This document shows, piece after piece, positions 21,507 to 31,211 of a stretch of 64,000 nucleotides of DNA (the first letter of the stretch is position 1; every line of letters starts with the position of its first letter). Source of the DNA: Oscillospiraceae bacterium. Its GTDB lineage: Bacteria; Bacillota; Clostridia; Oscillospirales; Acutalibacteraceae. The stretch lies in assembly GCA_015065805.1 (NCBI GenBank), contig SVPN01000005.1, forward strand, positions 1 to 64,000. The letters run 5' to 3'. The notes beneath the pieces were generated by a model that worked only from the letters and a program-made list of their open reading frames with translations, was not told the origin of the DNA and made no database searches. The position numbers were made by a program, and so were the translations under genes.

Positions 21507-21762
21507 GGTATAACGCGTTGACGAAGGAAGTAAGCGGTTACAAACATACCCCTCCAGAGACGGTTGCCCTGGCTGAAAGCAACCGGCGGTATCCGACCGG
21601 CTGAAGTTCCCTTCCGAGCGGCAATGCTGAACCGTTTATTGCAGTAGGCGTTGACGGCAGACCCCGTTACCGGTCGCAAGAGTGTTTGCTTTTGGCAAAA
21701 ATCAGGGTGGTACCGCGGAGAATTCACAATCTTCGTCCCTATTTCGGGACGAAGATTTTTTG
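21507..21762 (+). promoter_or_regulatory. T-box riboswitch (Phe specifier) ahead of pheST
   Basis: T-box AGGGTGGTACCGCG at 21704-21717, TGAAG-TTC specifier at 21607-21609, terminator AATCTTCGTCCC/GGGACGAAGATTTTTT at about 21729-21762. Confidence 0.93.
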
Positions 21763-31029: not shown

Positions 31030-31059
31030 TTGACAAGGCAAAGCGAAAAGCGGTAAAAT
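31030..31059 (+). promoter_or_regulatory. promoter of the uORF-mgtE transcript
   Basis: TTGACA-18 nt-TAAAAT. Confidence 0.7.
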
Positions 31060-31090
31060 ATCATTAATTACATTATAAGGAGTGAACGGA

Positions 31091-31165
31091 ATGGACCCGA
31101 ATAACGGCAGTTCAAAGCCTCCCCGACAATCTGTGTTCGGTATCCTTACCGTCGCTTTGCCGTAG
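31091..31165 (+). CDS. putative 24-aa leader peptide upstream of mgtE (MDPNNGSSKPPRQSVFGILTVALP)
   Basis: ATG preceded by AAGGAG at about 31077-31082; stop TAG 31163-31165; sits between a promoter and mgtE. Confidence 0.6.
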   Translation: MDPNNGSSKPPRQSVFGILTVALP

Positions 31166-31175
31166 TTGCTTTTGT

Positions 31176-31211
31176 TCTGCTCCCTGCCACATTCCATTTT
31201 GAAGGGAGAGA
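31176..31211 (+). promoter_or_regulatory. hairpin predicted to sequester the mgtE Shine-Dalgarno
   Basis: TCTGCTCCCT (31176-31185) complementary to AGGGAGAGA (31203-31211) with one bulge; AGGGAG is the mgtE SD. Confidence 0.55.

Follow-up and report, generated by a model that had tools for sequence, protein, structure and literature searches.

A leader-peptide family ahead of Mg2+ transport genes in Firmicutes, apparently undescribed and probably acting as a translational Mg2+ switch

The window (the whole stretch of 64,000 nucleotides analysed here, from an Oscillospiraceae bacterium) carries a short upstream open reading frame (uORF) before the gene mgtE, and this uORF belongs to a family of leader peptides fronting Mg2+ transport genes in gut and soil Firmicutes that is real, widespread and apparently undescribed. 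There is little room for doubt that these uORFs form a true regulatory family linked to Mg2+, and the leader peptide probably turns on Mg2+ uptake when the ribosome is hampered by low Mg2+. The reading preferred here, a cis-acting, ribosome-based Mg2+ leader-peptide attenuator, is given a probability of about 0.6, with Mg2+ dependence and translation of the uORF inferred from sequence. Translational sensing of Mg2+ by leader peptides is documented in enterobacteria, and for Firmicutes textbooks name the M-box.

The features of the leader are collected in Table 1; the positions of the uORF, its Shine-Dalgarno sequence (SD), the promoter and mgtE given in the original prediction proved exact when the sequence was re-read. 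The uORF reads ATG GAC CCG AAT AAC GGC AGT TCA AAG CCT CCC CGA CAA TCT GTG TTC GGT ATC CTT ACC GTC GCT TTG CCG TAG, its ATG follows AAGGAG at a spacing of 8 nt, and 51 nt separate its stop from the mgtE ATG (31217). The identity of the downstream gene is supported by TIGR00400 (465 bits vs a cut-off of 233) and by the Pfam families MgtE, MgtE_N and CBS. The promoter call rests on position, because such matches are common by chance in the region (3 observed vs 2.8 expected). No Rfam 15 family matched the window leader at gathering score and nothing relevant appeared at relaxed score (E up to 10), nor was there a covariance-model match to the M-box (RF00380) at >=44 bits; the absence of an M-box noted originally is thus borne out, and an Rfam hit across the uORF, which would have counted against the idea, was not obtained. 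Elsewhere in the window, a T-box leader (RF00230, 112 bits) lies at 21509-21743 (+). Folded as a single sequence, the leader is not unusually stable (z -0.53), and therefore the case had to be built by comparison. The uORF of the window is in frame with mgtE, with one TAG between them; the idea that it is an N-terminal part of MgtE cut off by a stop codon was rejected, since the three frames are about equally common in relatives (34/34/40).

Table 1. Features of the mgtE leader and of mgtE in the window
Feature	Position	Strand	Remarks
Promoter, sigma-70 type, TTGACA-18-TAAAAT	31030..31059	+	11/12 matches; leader-driving role inferred from position
uORF Shine-Dalgarno, AAGGAG	31077..31082	+	within P1 5' arm; SD kept at the same place in relatives
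P1 5' arm (uORF SD, start codon, codons 2-4)	31079..31101	+	window z -2.1, p 0.034
uORF	31091..31165	+	24 codons, MDPNNGSSKPPRQSVFGILTVALP and stop; conserved in the family; codons 2-14 under purifying selection family-wide
Segment L, GGCAGTTCAAAGCC (uORF codons 6-10)	31106..31119	+	predicted anti-anti-SD, pairs with 31168-31181
P1 3' arm (late uORF codons)	31135..31158	+	paired with 31079..31101
Segment 3, GCTTTTGTTCTGCT	31168..31181	+	partner of L; runs into anti-SD arm; contains CTGCT
P2 5' arm, TCTGCTCCCT (anti-SD)	31176..31185	+	pairs with mgtE SD; window z -1.0
P2 3' arm, AGGGAGAGA, with mgtE Shine-Dalgarno AGGGAG	31203..31211	+	partner of anti-SD arm
mgtE, Mg2+ transporter/channel, 455 aa	31217..32584	+	TIGR00400; PF01769, PF03448, PF00571

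For comparison, mgtE was traced in relatives at family, order and class level, which gave 180 leaders for inspection. Of these leaders, from related Clostridia, 112 have ahead of mgtE an SD-led uORF that begins M-(D/E)-x-G-S-S (or MDxxPLP); the uORF caller returned 1/180 when the leaders were read on the opposite strand and 40/900 for dinucleotide-shuffled sequences. This is the conservation in relatives that had been named as a check, and leaders that bear the uORF span many families of Clostridia. It is not universal in mgtE leaders, because 68/180 were not called, although about ten of these have a uORF by eye, including MDPGPLPSL, MDYPDPLPC and MDPVPLPVN of the MDxxPLP subgroup, whose likeness to MgtL is striking. 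Recurrent starts are MDAGSSKGTV, MDTGSTGGIVP, MDSGSSSGINPGGR and MEAGSNGAANPGG, and the genus of the window contributes VDPITGGSTKPPRQ and MESVSGSTKPPQ alongside the window's own MDPNNGSSKPPRQ. The feature common to the family is Met-Asp/Glu plus Gly-Ser-Ser (AGT codons) within the first 6-8 residues. Residue 2 is Asp or Glu in 104/108 leaders; a PxP or a second acidic residue near the N-terminus occurs in subgroups only, and most members have a single acidic residue within the first six, fewer than the EPDP of MgtL. The start codon varies between ATG, GTG and TTG with the SD retained, the offset of GGN-AGT from the start codon shifts by whole codons among members, and some members end in short hydrophobic tails. 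The likeness to MgtL that had been proposed held in part: the Met-acidic start is common to the family, whereas Pro-Pro-Arg is restricted to the window's genus plus a few others (Pro-Pro is rare in the family) and was dropped as a sensing element. Likewise, the acidic/Pro-x-Pro form does exist (MDSGPLP, MDPEPLS, MDYPDPLP) but in a subgroup of relatives other than the window's.

The specificity of the motif was assessed by a scan with the uORF start alone, without requiring any downstream gene, over one genome per species (85,000 named genomes). The scan yielded 78 loci, all 78 upstream of Mg2+ transport genes: 60 at mgtE (59 with mgtE 106-247 nt downstream and one with mgtE as second gene), 17 at the Mg2+ P-type ATPase gene mgtA (one of them behind an MgtC fragment) and one at an MgtA-like fragment followed by corA. 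The assignment to mgtA was made by HMM for 2 loci and by tblastn to a placed member for all 17, with L265 supported by a partial match only. The remaining locus (L250), from Trichococcus palustris (Bacilli), has the uORF, next the MgtA-like fragment and after it CorA; no HMM recognised the fragment, which is apparently a truncated mgtA, and the leader is possibly a remnant. Links of the family to MgtC and CorA are single, second-hand cases only. Record titles in the scan are almost all Clostridia, and the MDAGSS form was found only in Bacillota-type records. In the reverse search, several class- and phylum-level mgtA leaders were found to carry members, often more acidic (MDTGSSTDGE, MDGGGSSKNYK, MEPESSNGSN, MDTDGPSSRR), and one sequence-model match with E > 0.005 outside the mgtE loci (G049) is at mgtA. 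Judged from these sequences, the occurrence of the same motif before mgtA makes the Mg2+ link much stronger than the basis on which it was originally put forward; that Mg2+ is actually sensed is inferred. In Clostridioides difficile CD160 and CD10-165 (L247, L267) mgtA is preceded by MDAGSSNNISSVERS..., and the family therefore extends to named, culturable species.

Selection acts on the peptide and on the RNA. In closely related pairs the ratio of nonsynonymous to synonymous changes was 0.45 in codons 2-14 and 1.09 after codon 14, meaning that the N-terminal peptide is selected and the remainder is not; the synonymous bias anticipated by the original prediction is thus present in the first part of the uORF and absent later. 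Codons 7-14, outside the search pattern and tested separately to remove its bias, gave 0.53 in pattern-found leaders (p=4e-4), and codons 2-14 gave 0.58 in leaders not chosen by pattern (p=0.007). Codon choice is also strongly skewed: in codons 2-16 of 108 leaders, Ser was encoded as AGT 129 times vs 27 expected, Arg as CGA 83 times vs 6.6 and Leu as TTA 35 times vs 4.9, corresponding to 5-, 13- and 7-fold enrichments relative to the synonymous codon usage of mgtE that are confined to these codons. The 129 AGT in frame compare with 2 and 6 out of frame. This bias points to an RNA- or codon-level constraint besides selection on the peptide, as far as can be read from sequence comparison. Pure codon-level selection, suggested by the in-frame AGT, was weakened as an explanation, since a frame-locked RNA segment pairing downstream also accounts for AGT; the enrichment of CGA and TTA is not fully explained by the test of that pairing (L:3, below).

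Three pairings were detected in the leaders. P1 joins the uORF SD/start region with late uORF codons (mean z -2.9 vs dinucleotide shuffles in 108 leaders), and its arms fit their own partners better than arms from other leaders; P2 is formed by an upstream segment that masks the transporter SD (mean z -1.4; SD predicted unpaired 0.21); and L:3 joins codons 4-14 with a segment past the uORF stop, one shared in part with the anti-SD arm. The pairings were replicated in 60 independent named leaders (mean z -2.88 for P1, -2.41 for L:3 and -1.51 for P2), and in 15 mgtA leaders alone P1 reached a mean z of -3.07. Tethering a leader's own L raised the predicted accessibility of the SD from 0.145 to 0.320, and the L of another leader raised it to 0.206 (p=8e-10 and 2e-7). 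Covariation, computed without folding, was found between the conserved Gly codon and downstream bases: CTTYY lies downstream in 41/44 leaders with GGA vs 15/40 with GGC (p=4e-8), and CTGYY in 22/40 GGC leaders vs 7/44 GGA leaders (p=2e-4). GGA/GGC changes are synonymous in the uORF, and therefore the L:3 pairing is selected independently of the peptide. The comparison supports that P1 and L:3 recur with covariation across the family; the pairing tests assume independent leaders, and kinship inflates their significance, for which cross-leader controls correct in part only. Mutually exclusive folds, one of them masking the transporter ribosome-binding site (RBS), are predicted for the family and only weakly for the window alone. 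An MgtQ-like 2:3 switch (P1 3' arm vs anti-SD) was also tried and showed no general effect on SD accessibility (0.21 vs 0.22, p=0.67), and L:3 was adopted.

The window follows the family pattern, with a marginal P1 and a weak P2, and L:3 in the window alone is not significant (z -0.1). P1 is clearer in congeners of the window (z -4.0 and -3.5), where L:3 gave z -1.9 (p 0.047) in L002 and z -1.2 in L003. The CTGCT in segment 3 of the window is the partner predicted for a GGC codon, and the window has GGC-AGT. Its individual pairing statistics are weak, and what is claimed for the window is drawn from its belonging to the family.

Based on these pairings, it is proposed that the mgtE mRNA would start just 5' of the uORF and that the first ~14 codons (M-D/E-x-G-S-S...) would be hard to translate at low Mg2+. 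In one fold, P1 (uORF start with uORF end) and P2 (segment 3 with the mgtE SD) would keep MgtE off; in the other, L (codons 4-14) would pair with segment 3, leaving the mgtE SD free and MgtE on. With ample Mg2+, ribosomes traversing L would keep it off segment 3 and P2 would form, while with scarce Mg2+ they would pause, or dissociate, close to the peptide's acidic/Gly-Ser (or acidic/Pro) start, so that L would be free and mgtE translated. What ribosomes do at low Mg2+ and which way the switch runs are both inferred. The main uncertainty is the assignment of the MDxGSS start as the failure point at low Mg2+, itself inferred by analogy with the enterobacterial leaders. As most members have one acidic residue in the first six, it is not evident that the MDxGSS type would strongly destabilise the ribosome by itself. 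In five leaders (L026, L028, L030, L062, L173) a terminator-like hairpin encloses the mgtE SD, with a T-run and then the start codon directly after it, so that one hairpin could govern both transcription and translation; in species with a T-run after the SD hairpin, low Mg2+ would also permit mgtE transcription. In several of the MDxxPLP mgtE leaders (L156, L159, L163, L167, L169, L170), complementarity to the mgtE SD (TAAAGG or TAAGG) is seen in the Pro-Leu-Pro codons (CCT TTA CC), and in several the uORF stop is close ahead of the mgtE start. As CCT TTA CC appears complementary to this SD, the wiring may differ between the MDxxPLP and MDxGSS types.

Other explanations of the same data have to be considered. 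The strong constraint at the RNA level, with AGT and CGA far above expectation, the covariation of silent sites with downstream partners and the two alternative folds are also what may be seen if the leader were an Mg2+-binding RNA, a riboswitch whose conserved nucleotides overlap the ORF by chance and whose peptide is irrelevant. This is considered rather unlikely, given that nonsynonymous changes are depleted relative to synonymous ones in codons 2-14, that ATG, GTG or TTG starts are kept with an SD, that GGN-AGT moves by whole codons relative to the start and that no Rfam family was found over the leader. The peptide could instead sense another translation stress (amino-acid or EF-P limitation, or slow decoding of AGU, CGA and UUA), the Mg2+ genes being incidental. 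Such an account draws on the enrichment of AGT, CGA and TTA in codons 2-16 only and on the PPR of the window's genus, but it has to face the 78/78 motif matches at Mg2+ transport genes, a pattern fitting no amino acid, as well as the rarity of Pro-Pro in the family and the fact that L:3 pairing explains the codon bias at least partly; it is accordingly regarded as unlikely.

If the peptide were a small protein with a function of its own, working in trans on MgtE after the manner of MgtR or MgtS, the conserved N-terminus and the short hydrophobic tails of some members would fit; the lack of amino-acid constraint past codon 14 and the presence of the same N-terminus ahead of unrelated transporters make this very improbable. 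As for a chance ORF in a leader without regulatory role, only the modest statistics of the window taken alone leave any place for it, and family-wide conservation together with the specificity for Mg2+ genes refutes it at the family level.

The leader-peptide attenuator preferred here shares traits with systems known from enterobacteria. In MgtL and CorL, the downstream gene is repressed while the uORF is translated efficiently and activated when ribosomes drop off at low Mg2+ (PMC11282234; PMC11552253); in MgtQ, translation is aborted by Asp2/Glu5, and the mgtB RBS is freed by a 2:3 vs 3:4 switch (PMC8092293). The uORF is like these in being a short ORF, equipped with an SD, that lies immediately before an Mg2+ transporter gene. 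It resembles MgtL, the mgtA leader peptide of Salmonella and E. coli, in this placement of a short SD-led ORF, in acidic residue 2, in the alternative RNA folds and in the uORF SD inside a stem; moreover, the Clostridia subgroup MDSGPLP/MDPEPLS/MDYPDPLP comes near the MEPDPTPLP quoted for MgtL in the original prediction. Conversely, the new family belongs to another phylum, fronts mainly MgtE and not MgtA, lacks EPDP in its MDxGSS type, and its predicted control lies at the transporter SD or an intrinsic terminator whereas that of MgtL is Rho-dependent termination. The window itself does not match MgtL proper, as its peptide, MDPNNGSSKPPRQ, stands before mgtE and is not of the EPDP type before mgtA. 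MgtQ, in the Salmonella mgtC-mgtB intergenic region (PMC8092293), likewise has Asp2 and a stem masking the transporter RBS that competes with a stem overlapping the uORF; it differs in having 8 codons vs 21-49, in its Glu5, absent from the new family, in being intergenic inside an operon and in releasing the RBS through segment 2, the competitor in the new family being L (codons 4-14). CorL, the corA leader, also has its uORF SD paired in a stem with sequence further along the uORF, and a uORF translation inverse to transporter expression (PMC11552253), but it is Rho-dependent, has few acidic/Pro residues and its peptide is unrelated. The mgtE motif, reported from the proteobacterium Thioalkalivibrio only, is a riboswitch candidate whose SD and AUG lie in a large P4 stem (PMC11109978); it is also a structured RNA before mgtE with the SD in a stem but has no uORF.

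In the open literature, no report of the family, no occurrence of 'MDAGSS' and no leader peptide of a Firmicutes mgtE were found, and the sole mgtE motif met with was the Thioalkalivibrio riboswitch candidate (PMC11109978); subscription papers and preprints were outside the search. If true, conserved leader peptides of mgtE and mgtA across Clostridia, plus one Bacilli record, would imply that use of the ribosome as Mg2+ sensor is either independent or ancient. The family offers many natural variants for finding the nascent-chain and codon features that render translation sensitive to Mg2+; it also contributes an RNA/peptide family unrecognised here by Rfam 15 and NCBIfam. More tentatively, it can be speculated that Firmicutes possess a widespread ribosome-based Mg2+ sensor parallel to the M-box, in which one peptide family serves no fewer than two transporter families unrelated to each other, MgtE and MgtA, and in which codon choice (AGU, CGA, UUA) together with the nascent chain would let decoding read Mg2+; this proposal is doubtful at present.

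The M-box (ykoK leader, RF00380) regulates the same gene, mgtE, in Firmicutes and is present in some of the relatives' mgtE leaders, but it is an aptamer RNA without an ORF and is absent from the window. It was found in 11/60 scanned mgtE loci unmarked by the uORF caller, two of which (L148, L160) carry the uORF by eye, and in 3/40 of those marked. Since the M-box is rare together with the uORF and occasionally in tandem with it, the two are largely alternatives, sometimes in series: in L021, L109, L148, L160 and L169 the M-box lies upstream of the uORF before one mgtE gene.
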